From an uncultured Candidatus Saccharibacteria bacterium (GTDB lineage: Bacteria; Patescibacteriota; Saccharimonadia; Saccharimonadales; Saccharimonadaceae), in assembly GCA_946530965.1 (NCBI GenBank), contig CAMNAK010000001.1, positions 62,001 through 126,000 of the forward strand: DNA of 64,000 bases, read 5' to 3'. Positions 13,087 through 56,191 of this stretch are shown here, piece by piece. The number at the start of each line of letters is the position of its first letter. Position 1 is the first letter of the stretch. The notes beneath the pieces were generated by a model. It had not been told where the DNA came from. It saw only the letters and a list, made by a program, of their open reading frames with translations, and did no database searches. The translations under genes and the position numbers were made by a program.

Positions 13087-14108
13087 TCTTTATCCCAGTC
13101 GAAGCCTTCGCCAAAATGACCATATTCGGCGGTCTTGGCATAAATCGGGCGGAGCAGGTCTAGCTTTTGGATTATTCCGCGCGGACTCAAATCATAGTCT
13201 TCTGGTGGTATTATGACTGGCTTTCCATCTACAATAGCCGTGCGCTCAAGTGCTCCGCTAAAGCCGATGGCGTAGGCTAGACGAACAAACACTTCATGAG
13301 CTTTGTATTTGCGCAAGTAATCTACTGCGATTTTTCTTGCAATATAGGCTGCTGATCGGTCGACTTTGCTCGGGTCTTTGCCAGAGAATGCTCCGCCGCC
13401 AATTGGGATGCTTGGCCCATAGTTATCTACGGCGAGTTTTCGCCCGGTTAAACCGGCATCGGCATCGAATCCGCCAATCGTCCAGTCGCCACAAGGGTTA
13501 AGATGATATTCGATATCTTCGGACTGAAAGAATTCGCTTGCTAATCTTTTGAGTTCTGCCTGGCTGGCGTTTTGAAAGCTCGCCACAACCTTAACTACTT
13601 TATCTCCGTCCAAGGTGACCTGGGTTTTACCGTCAAAAGGGAACTTACTATAGATAAATTGGTTGAATCTGCGCGCTAAAACAACTTCTTTTGGTAATAG
13701 TTCGGGTGTCTCGTCATTAGCGTAGCCAATCATGATGCCTTGGTCGCCAGCGCCGCCAGTATCGACACCTCGTGCAATTTCTGGACTCTGTTCCTTGATA
13801 TTAATAATAATCTTTATCTTATTTCCGATAATACTGCGGATTATTTCCTCGATTTCAGCCTTGCTGATTTTTGTGGTCGAAGAAATTTCGCCAGTGGCAA
13901 AGAATTGGCCATGACCGCCAGCACAATCTACTGCTACGCGAGCATAAGGGTCACGGGCAAGATAAGCATCAAGGATTGAATCGGAAACACGATCGCAGAG
14001 CTTATCTGGATGTTTCGGCGAGACGGATTCTGCCGTGCGCAAAAAGCCAGGCGTGGAATTAGCAATTGATAAAGATTTGAGCGCAACGCGCTTTGAAGAT
14101 TTTGGCAT
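13083..14108 (-). CDS. metK: S-adenosylmethionine synthase
   Basis: A 341-residue enzyme that makes S-adenosylmethionine from methionine and ATP. The hallmark GAGDQGIMIGYA loop and the glycine-rich GGGAFSGKDPSKVDRSAAY segment, with its metal- and phosphate-binding residues, are both present. So is the N-terminal SVSPKHPDKLCDRVSD motif, though it is preceded by about 25 extra residues. The protein is shorter than usual bacterial MetK (about 380-400). Expression is controlled by a SAM-I riboswitch directly upstream, which confirms the call. The start ATG and its AAGGAAA site appear to lie within the aptamer fold. Confidence 0.95.
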   Translation of the reverse strand: MPKSSKRVALKSLSIANSTPGFLRTAESVSPKHPDKLCDRVSDSILDAYLARDPYARVAVDCAGGHGQFFATGEISSTTKISKAEIEEIIRSIIGNKIKIIINIKEQSPEIARGVDTGGAGDQGIMIGYANDETPELLPKEVVLARRFNQFIYSKFPFDGKTQVTLDGDKVVKVVASFQNASQAELKRLASEFFQSEDIEYHLNPCGDWTIGGFDADAGLTGRKLAVDNYGPSIPIGGGAFSGKDPSKVDRSAAYIARKIAVDYLRKYKAHEVFVRLAYAIGFSGALERTAIVDGKPVIIPPEDYDLSPRGIIQKLDLLRPIYAKTAEYGHFGEGFDWDKD

Positions 14109-14200
14109 ATCTTTCCTTTCTTGGCTGGAATTACCACCTTGCTCGAAGAGTAGGTTGGTAGCAGGTCAAAGGGCCAGTCCCTCGCTGCTTCTTGATATTA
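14106..14200 (-). promoter_or_regulatory. SAM-I (S-box) riboswitch of metK
   Basis: Reading the minus strand, the leader has UAUCAAGA, GCAG...CUGC (P2), the invariant GAGGGACUGGCCC, CUACCAACC, a P3 hairpin, AAGGUGGUAAUUCCAGCC and then GGAAAGAUAU. These are the conserved blocks of the SAM-I aptamer in order. P4 would be UUCC/GGAA, whose right arm is the Shine-Dalgarno (14113-14116). P1 would be AUAUC/GAUAU, whose right arm (14107-14111) includes the AU of the start codon. No terminator lies between aptamer and gene. SAM binding should therefore block translation initiation directly. The pairing is by eye. Confidence 0.9.
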
Positions 14201-14244
14201 GTTAATGTACTATTTTATTTAAACACAAAAGATTTGCTCCAGCA

Positions 14245-31224: not shown

Positions 31225-31313
31225 CCGTAAACTATGGCGCCAGCAGTGGGTCGTAAGGTCCGAGAGTATAACCCTTGCAACTCTTCTCAAACTGTGGTAG
31301 AATTGGTTGTAAT

Positions 31314-31580
31314 ATGATTACTAAAGATAACAAAGCTAAGGCAATTGCGAAGCTTGCTCGCAGCGACAAGGATGTTGGCTCCCCTGAAGTACAGGTTTCA
31401 GTTCTAACTGAACGTATCAAGGAAGTCACCGAGCATGTCAAGGCTAACAAGCATGATTACATGGCAAAGCGCGGCCTAATTCAGATGGTTGGTAAGCGCA
31501 AAAAGTTGCTAAAGCACCTAGAACAGAGCGACTTCGAGAGTTACAAAGCTACTGTCGCAAAGCTTGGTCTTCGCAAATAA
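31314..31580 (+). CDS. rpsO: 30S ribosomal protein uS15
   Basis: An 88-residue uS15 (MITKDNKAKAIAKLARSDKD at the start; the GSPEVQVSVLTERI and RGLIQMVGKRKKLL motifs are typical). The gene starts at 31314. TTGCAA-N17-TAGAAT lies upstream with only ten bases between -10 and ATG, so the leader is a few bases at most. The E. coli-type pseudoknot leader used for S15 autocontrol cannot fit. A terminator follows. As in many bacteria, pnp lies downstream, but here a minus-strand orphan gene separates them. Confidence 0.97.
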   Translation: MITKDNKAKAIAKLARSDKDVGSPEVQVSVLTERIKEVTEHVKANKHDYMAKRGLIQMVGKRKKLLKHLEQSDFESYKATVAKLGLRK

Positions 31581-31672: not shown

Positions 31673-32242
31673 TTACGAAGTTGCTAATGCTTCACTGAGC
31701 AGCATAGAGATCTCGTCCATCTTTCTTGCCGGTGTAAAACTACGTATATCTGCCTGTTCGTAGTTCTCGACGAAAAGCTGGATGATCTTCTTGTAGCAGT
31801 AGGAAAAAGCTCTCTCTCCGTCGCCTTTCTTGATAGCGCGTGAATCTGTACCGAGGAAAACATAAACTTGTCCGTCCTCTTTGCGCTTCAAAATAGAAAG
31901 GCAACAAGCTTTGTTGACTGCTTTCTTGATGGCCATGAAATGCTCTTCGATGAAGTCATCGATGCTGCCGTTAAAGCCGGGCATGTAGAGCTGGGCCATA
32001 GTGGGCTTATCTTCGGGGCTGAGCGTGCAGGTGAAGGGAAGAATGGTTGCTGTGACGATGTTCTTGCTTTTGATCTCAGCGATCGAGATGCTGAAACCGT
32101 CATGCTTGATTTTGTCCCAAGCTGCCTGAATCTCTTCTGTGGTCTTTGCTCTGAAGATGAGCTTGCTTCTGCTCACGGAAACAGTGGTTGTCTCGTGGTT
32201 CTTTTTGGAGGAACCTGACTCTGTGGTATCCATATTTGCCAT
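31673..32242 (-). CDS. Hypothetical protein, orphan-cassette gene inserted between rpsO and pnp
   Basis: A 189-residue soluble protein with a Ser/Thr-rich, probably disordered N-terminus (about 25 residues) followed by a mixed alpha/beta domain. No motif is recognised. Proline is CCC or CCG in all five cases I read, arginine is often AGA, and threonine is often ACA/ACC. The adjacent pnp uses CCA and CGC/CGT, so codon use differs sharply. The start follows AAAGAAAGGGG. The promoter is TTGACT-N16-TAAAAT. Copy 2 of the 98-bp repeat lies just upstream in the same orientation. It interrupts the common rpsO-pnp neighbourhood. Confidence 0.75.
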   Translation of the reverse strand: MANMDTTESGSSKKNHETTTVSVSRSKLIFRAKTTEEIQAAWDKIKHDGFSISIAEIKSKNIVTATILPFTCTLSPEDKPTMAQLYMPGFNGSIDDFIEEHFMAIKKAVNKACCLSILKRKEDGQVYVFLGTDSRAIKKGDGERAFSYCYKKIIQLFVENYEQADIRSFTPARKMDEISMLLSEALATS

Positions 32243-32316
32243 TGTAGATACCCCTTTCTTTATAAAGTACAACTTTCTCATCTCTCCAATCGGAAACAAA
32301 AAAGAAGTCCAATAAT

Positions 32317-32344
32317 ATTTTAACATAATAGTGATAAAAGTCAA
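32317..32344 (-). promoter_or_regulatory. Promoter of orphan gene at 32242
   Basis: TTGACT (32339-32344), 16-base spacer, TAAAAT (32317-32322) on the minus strand. Confidence 0.65.
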
Positions 32345-32393
32345 AGAAGCTGCATTGCTATAGTTTTTTGTCTCTTATGTATTTTTTAGCAAT

Positions 32394-32490
32394 GTGCTCA
32401 TTAGCTTGCAAAATCTGCAAGTTTTTACAGATAAGCCTATAACGCTCAGGTGTATTAACTTGCGAAAATCGCAAGCTAATCCATACGTTA
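32394..32490 (-). repeat. Interspersed ~98-bp repeat, copy 2
   Basis: The reverse complement of the element at 502-598, with about eight differences. Here the terminal inverted repeat is perfect (ATTAGCTTGC/GCAAGCTAAT). Both internal hairpins are conserved, while most changes fall in the spacer between them and at the outer ends, a pattern consistent with a structure being kept. Confidence 0.8.
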
Positions 32491-32539
32491 GAGAGAACAA
32501 TTAAAGTAGCTACAGCTTCCGAACGAGACGCCACCGTGA

Positions 32540-32545
32540 TATAAT
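32540..32545 (+). promoter_or_regulatory. -10 element of pnp
   Basis: TATAAT about 96 bases before the pnp start. It predicts a transcript starting near 32552 with a ~90-base leader, unlike most core genes here. Confidence 0.65.
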
Positions 32546-32562
32546 ATAGGTAGTAAATAATA

Positions 32563-32625
32563 TCGAGAAAATGATAGATATTTACCGCTTTTAGGCAAGG
32601 CGCTAGATACTTATTATTTTCTCGA
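32563..32625 (+). promoter_or_regulatory. pnp leader hairpin
   Basis: Perfect ten-base arms TCGAGAAAAT (32563-32572) and ATTTTCTCGA (32616-32625), extendable with a mismatch, enclose 43 bases. The hairpin ends one or two bases before the AAAGG ribosome site. In E. coli a pnp leader hairpin is cut by RNase III and then degraded by PNPase, giving autoregulation; the similarity here is structural only. Confidence 0.7.
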
Positions 32626-32641
32626 AGAAAGGTAGTTTTTG

Positions 32642-34828
32642 ATGGAAATCATTAATCCAAGCGGCAAGAAAACTCTGAAGCTTGAGACTGATTTTTGTGG
32701 TCGCAAACTTGGCCTCGAAGTTAACCGCGTTGGCTTCCGTACCACTTCTTCAGTTCTCGTTACTTACGGCGATACTGTCGTTCTCGGCTCGGTCGTTGTC
32801 GGCAACAAGCCAATCATGCAGGATTTCTTCCCGCTAACAATTGAATATCAGGAACGCTACTATGCTTCTGGCAAGATTTCTAGCAGCAAGTTTATTAAGC
32901 GCGAAGGTAAACCTTCGGAAGAGGCTGTTTTGGTTGCTCGTCTTATCGATCGCCCAATTCGTCCACTATTTCCAAAGGGTTATCGCCAGGAAATTCAGGT
33001 TGTCTCTACGGTTCTTTCTATGGATCCAAACTTCCGCCCAGATGTAATTGCTATGATCGCAGCATCTAGTGCATTGATGCTTGCTGGTGTTCCATTTGAT
33101 GGCCCAATTGCTGGTCTCCGCATTGGTCGCGTAAATGGCGAATATAAGGCGTTCTTGAGTCCAGAAGAGCGTGAAGCTTCTGACCTTGATCTAGTTGTTG
33201 CTGGTAAAGATTCTGGTATTACGATGGTTGAAGCTGGTGCAAACGAAGTTCCAGAAGACGTCATCATTGATGGTATGGCTTGGGGTCTAGAGCAGCTACA
33301 GCCTGCTATTAAGCTCCAGAACGAGCTACGCGAAAAGGTGGGTGTTGCTGAGCAAGAATATACCCTTATGCTTCCTAGTGAAGAAGTCAAGAATCAGGTT
33401 GATGCTTGGATGGTTGGTAAGCTTGATGAGAAATTCCGCATCAGTAACACTGTTGAGCGTAACCAGCTTATCTCTGATCTAAAGTATGCTATGCACGATG
33501 AGTTCTGCCAGAAGATTGTTTCTGACGAAGAAGCTGGCGTTACAGACAAGATGAGCGACGAAGAAAAGATGACCGTCCGCACAAAGTATTATGATGAACA
33601 CTTCCGCGATGAATATGGCGAAGCTTTCGAGCTAGCCGTTAAGCGCGATGTTCGCAAGAATATTATCGAGAAGGGTGTTCGTCCGGATGGTCGTAAACTT
33701 GACGAGGTTCGCCCACTAAGTTCACAGGTTGGCATTTTACCACGCGTTCATGGCTCCAGCTTGTTTACTCGTGGTGTAACTCAGGCTCTAAACGCTGTTA
33801 CTTTGGCGCCACTCAGCTATGCTCAGCTAGTTGATACTATGGAGACTACTGACGGTTCTCGCCGTTATATGCACCACTATAACGCCCCTGGCTATACTGT
33901 TGGTGAATGTTCTCGTATGGGTAGCCCAGGTCGTCGCGAGATTGGTCATGGTTACTTGGCAGAACGCGCGCTTCTTCCAGTTCTTCCTAGCGAAGAAGAG
34001 TTCCCATATGCAATCCGTAGTGTAACCGACATTATGTCTCAGAATGGTTCTACTTCTATGGCTGCAACTTGTAGCTCTTGTCTAGCTTTGATGGATGCTG
34101 GTGTTCCACTCAAACGCCCAGTCTCTGGTGTTGCCATGGGTCTTATGATGGATGGTGATAAGCCATACGTCTTAACTGATCTTATGGATGCGGAAGACTT
34201 TGCTGGCGATATGGACTTCAAGGTTACTGGTACTACTGAAGGTGTTACTGCAATGCAGATGGATATGAAGGTTCATGGTCTTCCTATCTCTGTCTTGTCT
34301 GAAGCTATTAAGAAGGCTCATGCTGGTCGTATGTTTATTCTTGAGCATATGCTAAGCGTCTTGCCTGGTCCACGCGATCATCTCAGTCCATATGCTCCTC
34401 ATATCGAGAAGCTCATGATTAATCCAGATAAGATTGGTCTAGTTATTGGTAAGGGTGGTGAAACGATCAACAAGATTACTACCGAAACTGGCGCAGAAAT
34501 CAATATCGAAGAGAATGGTCTAATTACAATCGCATCTTCTGATGGCGAAAAGATCAAGAAGGCTCTCGATTGGATTAAGGGTCTTGTAGAAGAACCGGAA
34601 GTTGGCAAAATCTACAACGGTAAAGTCGTTACTATTAAAGACTTTGGCGCATTTGTAAATATTATGCCAAATGTTGACGGTATGCTTCATATCTCTCAGA
34701 TCTCCGATAAGAGAATTGCGAAGGTCGAAGACGTATTGAAGCTTGGTCAAGAAATTAAGGTTCGCCTTGATTCTATTGACGAAAAAGGTCGTCTCGGTCT
34801 ATCAATGCGCGGCGTAAAACAGGATTAA
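32642..34828 (+). CDS. pnp: Polyribonucleotide nucleotidyltransferase (PNPase)
   Basis: A 728-residue phosphorolytic 3'-5' exoribonuclease. Two RNase PH-like domains are joined by the helical PNPase domain. The second PH domain carries SRRYMHHYNAPGYTVGE, GRREIGHG and the DGDKPYVLTDLMDAEDFAGD active-site segment. A KH domain (GLVIGKGGETINKI) and an S1 domain (YNGKVVTIKDFGAFVNIMP) end the protein. The start is the ATG at 32642 after AAAGG; a TTG immediately before is less likely. Its leader hairpin and the rnc gene at 55424 make RNase III control plausible. Confidence 0.97.
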   Translation: MEIINPSGKKTLKLETDFCGRKLGLEVNRVGFRTTSSVLVTYGDTVVLGSVVVGNKPIMQDFFPLTIEYQERYYASGKISSSKFIKREGKPSEEAVLVARLIDRPIRPLFPKGYRQEIQVVSTVLSMDPNFRPDVIAMIAASSALMLAGVPFDGPIAGLRIGRVNGEYKAFLSPEEREASDLDLVVAGKDSGITMVEAGANEVPEDVIIDGMAWGLEQLQPAIKLQNELREKVGVAEQEYTLMLPSEEVKNQVDAWMVGKLDEKFRISNTVERNQLISDLKYAMHDEFCQKIVSDEEAGVTDKMSDEEKMTVRTKYYDEHFRDEYGEAFELAVKRDVRKNIIEKGVRPDGRKLDEVRPLSSQVGILPRVHGSSLFTRGVTQALNAVTLAPLSYAQLVDTMETTDGSRRYMHHYNAPGYTVGECSRMGSPGRREIGHGYLAERALLPVLPSEEEFPYAIRSVTDIMSQNGSTSMAATCSSCLALMDAGVPLKRPVSGVAMGLMMDGDKPYVLTDLMDAEDFAGDMDFKVTGTTEGVTAMQMDMKVHGLPISVLSEAIKKAHAGRMFILEHMLSVLPGPRDHLSPYAPHIEKLMINPDKIGLVIGKGGETINKITTETGAEINIEENGLITIASSDGEKIKKALDWIKGLVEEPEVGKIYNGKVVTIKDFGAFVNIMPNVDGMLHISQISDKRIAKVEDVLKLGQEIKVRLDSIDEKGRLGLSMRGVKQD

Positions 34829-54827: not shown

Positions 54828-55437
54828 AGCTAAAAACGGCTCTAGGGCCGGCAGAAGTTCGGCTCAAAGAAACGTACCAGCAAAGCGCAACGGATATAAA
54901 GTTCCGGAGGCTTTGCCAACAAAAAGATACAAAGAACCTAGCTTTTCAAAACTACGCCAAGTAGTTTTTCGTAAAAAACCAGAAATTCGTGAAATCGTAC
55001 GCGAACCAACCGCTGGCGGCATTGTTTTTCGCCCAACCGCTGATGGTAAAGATATTGAAATTCTTTTAATTCAAGATAGCAAAAACCGTTGGACGATTCC
55101 AAAGGGTCATATTGAACCAGGAGAAACTGCGAAAGTTACTGCAGTTCGCGAAATCGGTGAAGAGTCTGGCCTAAAGGATGTTGAAGTATTGTGCTGGCTT
55201 GGTAAGATTCATTTCAAATATCGCCGCGCCGAAAAACTTGTTCTTATGACAACTCAGGTATATCTCGTTGAGTCCATGGATAAGAACGAAAGGCCAACCA
55301 AAGAAAAATGGATGAATGGTATCCGTTGGTTTAGCTTTAGCGAAGCACTTGATGCGATCGAATATGCGGATATTGAAAAGCTGATGCTTATTGCAAAACG
55401 CAAAATTCGTAACGGAGAATTTGATGGACAAAAGTAG
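54754..55437 (+). CDS. NUDIX hydrolase with basic N-terminal extension
   Basis: A 227-residue protein. The first ~75 residues are Lys/Arg/Gln-rich and probably disordered. The Nudix domain follows (GGIVF at its start), with the box GHIEPGE-x7-REIGEESGL. It could be an Ap4A- or dNTP-directed pyrophosphatase; the basic tail might bind RNA or ribosomes. The start at 54754 follows GAGAGGAAAAA and lies 74 bases inside nusB. No later in-frame ATG would leave a complete Nudix domain. Its stop overlaps rnc by 14 bases, so translation is coupled. Confidence 0.85.
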
Positions 55438-56191
55438 CTTAGATGAATACAAAAGCTTCGCTAAGGAAAAACTGGGAATCCAATTTTCAAATATCGACCT
55501 ATTAGTTACCGCACTTACGCACCGTTCCTATGTAAACGAACATAAGAAAACTACAGTCATTCATAACGAGCGTCTAGAATTCTTGGGCGATGCCGTCCTA
55601 GAGCTCGTTGTGTCGGACTTTCTATTTCACTCGTTTGACCAGCCAGAAGGTATTATGACTAGCTGGCGTGCCGCACTTGTTAATACTGAAGCTAACGCCG
55701 CTGCAGGCGAAAGACTTGGATACAATCCGCTAGTCCGCCTCAGCAAGGGCGAAAAGAATGGCTCCGAACGCGCTCGTCACGTTATCTTGGCAGACTGCTA
55801 CGAAGCTATTATCGGCGCAATCTACGAAGATAAAGGTTACGAAGAGGCGGAGAAGTTTATCTATAAAAATAGTCTCGTTCCAGCTATTGATAAGATTTTG
55901 AGCGAAGAAAGCTGGCGTGATCCAAAGTCTCATCTTCAGGAACTTGCACAGAAGATTGATGGGGTTACTCCAATCTATCGCGTCATGAAGGAAGAAGGCC
56001 CAGATCACGATAAGCTCTTCACGCTTGGTGTATATATCGGCGAGCACCTAAAAGCTACTGGTGTAGGCCATAGTAAACAGGAAGCTCAGGTAAATGCGGC
56101 TGCTGAAACCATTAGGAAATACCGCAAAACTCATCCAAGTGCTGCTCAGCCAGTTATTCCAGAACGAAAACCATATAAATGGGCGAAATAA
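55424..56191 (+). CDS. rnc: Ribonuclease III
   Basis: A 255-residue double-stranded-RNA endonuclease. The signature NERLEFLGDAVLELVV (about 48-63) holds the catalytic acids; a second acidic helix is LADCYEAIIGAIYEDKG. The C-terminal dsRNA-binding domain runs from DPKSHLQELAQ to QEAQVNAAAETIRKYRK. I chose the start at 55424 because GGAG precedes it at a proper distance; it overlaps the upstream stop. It processes rRNA and may cut the long pnp leader hairpin. Confidence 0.96.
   Translation: MDKSSLDEYKSFAKEKLGIQFSNIDLLVTALTHRSYVNEHKKTTVIHNERLEFLGDAVLELVVSDFLFHSFDQPEGIMTSWRAALVNTEANAAAGERLGYNPLVRLSKGEKNGSERARHVILADCYEAIIGAIYEDKGYEEAEKFIYKNSLVPAIDKILSEESWRDPKSHLQELAQKIDGVTPIYRVMKEEGPDHDKLFTLGVYIGEHLKATGVGHSKQEAQVNAAAETIRKYRKTHPSAAQPVIPERKPYKWAK

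Follow-up and report, generated by a model that had tools for sequence, protein, structure and literature searches.

A conserved hairpin in the pnp leader of Saccharibacteria, a candidate RNA element for control of PNPase

The leader of pnp, the gene for polynucleotide phosphorylase (PNPase), folds into a long hairpin in Saccharibacteria, and this hairpin is a real RNA element. Judged from sequence, it very probably sets the amount of PNPase made. By analogy with Escherichia coli, we consider it reasonably probable that the leader acts as a cis-acting RNA operator, in which cutting by RNase III is followed by autocontrol of pnp by PNPase. The DNA analyzed, hereafter the window, is a stretch of 64,000 nucleotides (positions 62001-126000 of contig C1) from a 997-kb Candidatus Saccharibacteria genome. 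The features on which the analysis draws are as follows.

31275..31580, + strand: rpsO (ribosomal protein S15) open reading frame, upstream of pnp
32537..32545, + strand: extended -10 box TGATATAAT, 17 nt before the stem
32563..32625, + strand: pnp leader hairpin of 27 pairs with a 5-nt loop (32592-32596), delineated by MFE fold, inverted-repeat arms, covariation, and model matches
32572..32580, + strand: 5' half of the conserved core, TGATAGATA, with mismatched A 32578 and wobble Gs 32573 and 32577
32608..32616, + strand: 3' half of the conserved core, TACTTATTA, with mismatched C 32610 and wobble Us 32611 and 32615
32627..32632, + strand: Shine-Dalgarno sequence GAAAGG, outside the stem, starting one nucleotide past the stem end
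32642..34828, + strand: pnp, polynucleotide phosphorylase, 728 aa, start codon ATG at 32642, with two RNase PH domains, KH, and S1
55424..56191, + strand: rnc, RNase III with catalytic and dsRNA-binding domains, the presumed cutter in trans

The MFE fold of 32552-32660 places the stem at exactly 32563-32625, with arms at 32563-32591 and 32597-32625 (-31.9 kcal/mol, z -4.94), an energy equalled by none of 200 dinucleotide shuffles. The ten basal pairs are all Watson-Crick (TCGAGAAAAT / ATTTTCTCGA); above them, the stem includes G.U pairs and is interrupted by two 1x1 mismatches, A32578.C32610 and C32585.C32603. A first-pass annotation of this DNA had described a long leader hairpin ending at the ribosome site, with arms perfect over ten bases and extendable, and the fold bears out both points: a single nucleotide separates the 27-pair stem from the Shine-Dalgarno sequence. 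Stability alone proves nothing, because many sites in the window fold more stably. When both strands of the window were folded from end to end in 110-nt windows at a step of 10, the 15 lowest-energy distinct sites listed did not include the pnp leader; ranking the same scan by pair count, with bulges allowed, was uninformative. Hairpin strength was accordingly rejected as a criterion. The beyond-chance evidence for the hairpin is its conservation and covariation, not its stability.

The extended -10 box predicts a transcript start at about 32551-32554, roughly 10 nt before the hairpin. A box of this type (TGn followed by TAnMAT, 15-20 nt before the stem) precedes the hairpin in 39 of 40 leaders of the genus, with L040 as the exception, a raw count taken without a chance control; a simple promoter scan of the window did not list the 32537-32545 box. 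As far as sequence allows, the predicted start thus lies upstream of the left arm, as the first-pass reading required, and with such a start the mRNA would open with a long double-stranded stem. At the other end of the hairpin, GAA[AG]GG occupies the Shine-Dalgarno position in all 40 genus leaders and is unpaired in the genus-leader fold, its last two Gs pairing weakly downstream in the longer 32552-32660 fold. A terminator scan of the leader region found none, which, together with the position of the Shine-Dalgarno sequence outside the stem, speaks against simple occlusion or attenuation. A stem that begins some 10 nt from the predicted start might do no more than protect the message against 5'-end-dependent decay, feedback playing no part. 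We regard such a role as improbable, given that it would explain neither the conserved core nor the confinement of model finds to pnp, both described below.

Within the genus, the hairpin is universal among the leaders read. All 45 congeneric genomes, including that of the window, gave a match in the pnp search, and the match is a real pnp in 41; in G017, G020, G036, and G040 it covers an S1 domain only, and these were excluded together with G029, whose gene lacks its N-terminus. The hairpin is present in each of the remaining 40 leaders, the window's included (median fold z -4.65; 39 of 40 below -2). Its loop and inner stem are variable, and loop lengths differ. In four genomes, an A added to one arm and a U added to the other give the stem an extra pair. 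The genus alignment A2 holds 32 of the 40 leaders (28 distinct), omitting L013, L025, L027, and L036-L040, which have long loops, the extra pair, or divergent sequence. Of its cells, 95.3% are paired. Two-sided changes occupy 66 cells against 25.5 in shuffles, a value reached by none of 500, and covariation scores 0.273, compared with 0.120 in shuffles (0/500) and at most 0.095 when the pairing is slid; these statistics, like those for the class given below, ignore tree and kinship. Thirteen of the 25 pairs are invariant, and the number of pairs with two-sided changes (9 against 7.9 shuffled) is not above chance (159/500).

Beyond the genus, we sampled 60 loci from other genera of the family, 20 from other families of the order, and 20 from other orders of the class. 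Over the 120 nt preceding pnp, median z values were -2.96, -3.55, and -2.92 in these three groups, respectively, compared with -0.46, -0.28, and -1.54 for upstream DNA and -0.48, -0.59, and -0.83 for coding DNA. Values below -2 were reached by 45/60, 16/20, and 14/20 leaders, leaving 15, 4, and 6 that did not; in the group from other orders, the upstream control itself folds somewhat well (7/20 below -2). Many of these hairpins share a recurrent core, typically GUGAUAG-A-UA / UA-C-CUGUUAC or GUGGUGG-A-UA / UA-C-CCGUUAC, which takes the form AUGAUAG-A-UA / UA-C-UUAUUAU in the window's genus. Its signature is a paired G followed by an unpaired A that faces an unpaired C. Counted loosely and with some accidental cases included, this signature marks 35/40 genus, 42/60 family, 11/20 order, and 7/20 class hairpins, against 24/300 shuffled leaders from the family, order, and class groups.

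We aligned 41 of the 60 non-genus hairpins bearing this signature with five genus rows (alignment A3, 46 sequences). The non-genus rows were picked by eye for a recognizable core, a selection that favors the core, and the weight therefore falls on the held-out tests described below. In A3, two-sided changes occupy 264 cells compared with 104.6 in shuffles (0/500 reach it), and covariation is 0.578 compared with 0.242 (0/500) and at most 0.212 when slid; pairs with a two-sided change number 21 of 24, only just above the 18.1 of the shuffles (5/500). Genus and class alignments alike thus exceed both shuffled and slid controls, the pattern of a stem under selection for pairing. The first-pass annotation had named conservation of the stem in close relatives and its covariation among related genomes as the checks to be made; the hairpin passes the one in all 40 genus leaders and the other through compensatory changes at both levels. 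Two wobbles are kept across A3, G.U at pair 13/72 in 39 of 46 rows and U.G at pair 15/70 in 38 of 46; at the latter the window's genus has U-A instead. Across genera, sequence turns over while pairing stays. In g2 (L073-L079), the closest genus as judged by PNPase identity, the pnp leader mostly forms a hairpin with another core, of the AACGGCAGA / UCUGAGGUU type, and one member, L075, has mainly a different fold. The conserved non-Watson-Crick core could also be read as the site at which some other RNA-binding protein, or a small ligand, sets the PNPase level. We think this very unlikely: we know of no ligand aptamer that resembles this lone, unbranched stem and its variable loop.

Covariance-model searches tie the element to pnp. 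A genus model (R1), run at E 0.01 against 199 family genomes, found 19, of which 17 are congeneric; as it reached few other genera, we built a class-level model (R2) from the 46 A3 leaders, the E-values of both models being rough after a short calibration. R2 at E 0.1 found 66 of 101 family genomes, with one site in each, and every site precedes pnp by 12-59 nt and shares its strand. It missed 35 of the 101, and 9 of the 101 gave no match in the pnp search. Genomes with rows in A3 were recovered in 34 of 36 cases (all except G077 and G091). Those without a row were recovered in 32 of 65; some of these are close relatives of model members, among them G016, which is nearly identical to the window. 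In a second held-out set of 59 Saccharibacteria loci plus E. coli, none in A3, R2 gave 20 matches at E <=10. Eighteen of these are pnp leaders on the sense strand (from L128 at 1.1e-10 to L165 at 0.08), one (L090) is antisense at the same palindrome, and one (L146) lies elsewhere; 41 of the 59 Saccharibacteria leaders were thus missed. Among 41 genomes of the wider class, R2 found six sites, each just upstream of pnp, of which only that in G247 comes from a genome that gave no row to A3. The window's own genome has no credible site apart from the pnp leader; the second-best match there has an E of 4.8. From these searches we conclude that the element is tied to pnp.

The same searches bear on whether the inverted repeat, which adjoins a promoter, could be a DNA palindrome serving as a transcription-factor operator, with no RNA structure involved. 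The model scores 82.9 bits on the sense strand against 37 on the antisense strand, and this strand bias, the conserved G.U pairs and compensatory changes, which fit RNA, and the varying loop lengths together make a DNA operator extremely improbable.

How might the hairpin control PNPase? In E. coli, RNase III cuts the pnp leader and PNPase then removes the upstream strand. Autocontrol of E. coli pnp is the reported subject of work by Regnier and Portier (1986), Robert-Le Meur and Portier (1992/1994), Jarrige (2001), and Carzaniga (2009/2015). We infer a similar course here, from transcript start through RNase III cutting and PNPase trimming to the sign of regulation. Transcription would begin about 10 nt before the hairpin, and the stem would leave the Shine-Dalgarno sequence free, such that the intact message would be stable and translated. 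RNase III, the product of rnc, would cut within the stem, with the conserved G.U/A.C core positioning the cut. The cut would expose a 3' end on the upstream strand, from which PNPase would digest that strand away, and the remaining pnp message, left with a short unprotected 5' end, would be poorly translated and quickly destroyed. Through such a cut-and-trim loop, high PNPase would lower pnp expression. The rnc gene noted in the first pass at 55424 does encode an RNase III with a dsRNA-binding domain. Of 147 class genomes, 145 encode RNase III, including every one of the 138 good ones; because the enzyme is nearly universal in these genomes, its presence is non-discriminating.

Counting against a role for RNase III, the stem sequence within the genus is more fixed than a plain RNase III substrate needs. 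The main rival is direct binding: PNPase, through its KH and S1 domains, would bind the conserved core and block the adjacent ribosome site without RNase III, making the hairpin a translational operator. The conserved wobbles resemble a recognition site, and with only one nucleotide between the stem and the Shine-Dalgarno sequence, a bound protein would block the 30S subunit; E. coli pnp is itself reported to have RNase III-independent autocontrol by translational repression. A helix of about 25 pairs is, however, presumably longer than a protein site needs, and the hairpin is kept even though its loop and outer stem vary freely. On balance we hold direct binding to be unlikely, if less so than the other alternatives, and prefer cutting by RNase III followed by PNPase autocontrol.

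The arrangement under the preferred reading has counterparts in other bacteria. As in the E. coli rpsO-pnp locus, the long hairpin is part of the pnp 5' UTR and follows both rpsO and the predicted start, in a genome that encodes RNase III and a KH/S1 PNPase. The E. coli fold differs in having its long stem further upstream and another hairpin after it, whereas the window's stem directly abuts the Shine-Dalgarno sequence. Cutting of the E. coli leader hairpin by RNase III is followed by faster decay of the message, according to one report (PMC5371410). In Streptomyces coelicolor, another (PMC10126417) places a hairpin between rpsO and pnp, likewise just upstream of pnp, which RNase III cuts at an internal loop, and gives a 2-4-fold rise in PNPase activity in an rnc null mutant. 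The internal loop there is 4/4, compared with the 1x1 mismatches and wobbles of the window's hairpin. A cis-regulatory RNA motif named for the gene, Actino-pnp (RF01688), is also listed for Actinomycetales in PMC2864571. The first-pass annotation had called such control notable in a lineage so distant from E. coli; since an RNase III-cut pnp hairpin from Streptomyces and a pnp motif from Actinomycetales are already described in these sources, the claim of rarity is weaker than stated.

Searched with R2 at an E cutoff of 10, the E. coli locus (L173) gave nothing, any relation to its leader being undetectable by the model. RF01688 had no match in the window or in 17 Saccharibacteria loci. Its gathering score was reached in 0 of 41 class genomes and equally in 0 of 14 control genomes, so that the sensitivity of that search is not demonstrated; three weak matches in class genomes lie on contigs other than that of pnp. 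Rfam 15 gave no match at E <=5 over 32350-32800 of the window and no leader match at E <=1 over the 17 other Saccharibacteria loci, and at E <=1 it returned SraG and the S15 leader in the E. coli locus. In L143, a single below-threshold microRNA match lies upstream of the hairpin. A literature search joining Saccharibacteria and polynucleotide phosphorylase, with most subscription papers and supplementary motif collections outside its reach, found none; by title, the two papers found on Saccharibacteria and RNase III concern rRNA insertions and Cas12a, and searches with RNA-seq and PNPase and for Patescibacteria offered nothing relevant. The pnp leader hairpin appears to be a new RNA element, whose mode of action, if the preferred reading holds, is of a known kind.

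Leaders from other classes of the phylum also tend to fold strongly, with z below -2 in 13 of 20 compared with 1 of 20 for upstream and 4 of 20 for coding DNA, although pnp starts in these genomes were chosen by rule and may be wrong; R2 found none of these 20 leaders. On account of this tendency, control of PNPase through a leader duplex might be ancient in bacteria, its sequence replaced lineage by lineage and the duplex kept. We offer this tentatively, as part of a broader conjecture in which the hairpin defines an undescribed RNA family of the Saccharibacteria class and its wobble and mismatch core serves pnp feedback as a dedicated signal for docking or cutting. The element offers a way to ask whether PNPase feedback via a leader duplex arose once or many times. 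Being short and found at pnp only, in a 1-Mb genome and in 66 genomes of the family, it also provides a small, defined RNA-enzyme system for testing.

Relatives of pnp bear out the assignment of the host to Candidatus Saccharibacteria. Of the best 80 of 416 relatives from named genomes, 77 are titled Saccharibacteria, two are titled Candidatus Nomurabacteria, and the last is from Ca. Nanosyncoccus alces, at 72% identity. The Nomurabacteria records (L239 and L243) encode a PNPase 71% identical to the window's and are probably mislabelled MAGs of its family (G111, G055). The rpsO gene adjoins pnp in 26 of 30 genus loci (flank <=1500 nt) and in 33 of 80 loci from genome contigs (flank <=1000 nt). 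Between the two genes, the window carries an opposite-strand gene (31673-32344, - strand, up to 223 aa) whose product has no Pfam match. Among these 110 pnp loci, drawn from partly identical genomes, the gene is restricted to the window's genome and a single relative at 99% identity (L005 = L197); it resembles an orphan inserted recently. Beside it, just upstream of the pnp promoter, two overlapping inverted repeats occupy 32400-32483, with 37-nt arms 73% complementary and 15-nt arms 87% complementary. Elsewhere in the window, a SAM riboswitch (RF00162, 59 bits) lies at 14104-14201 on the - strand, and a long, nearly perfect inverted repeat at 258-350 is the most stable fold of the window scan, at -51.9 kcal/mol.
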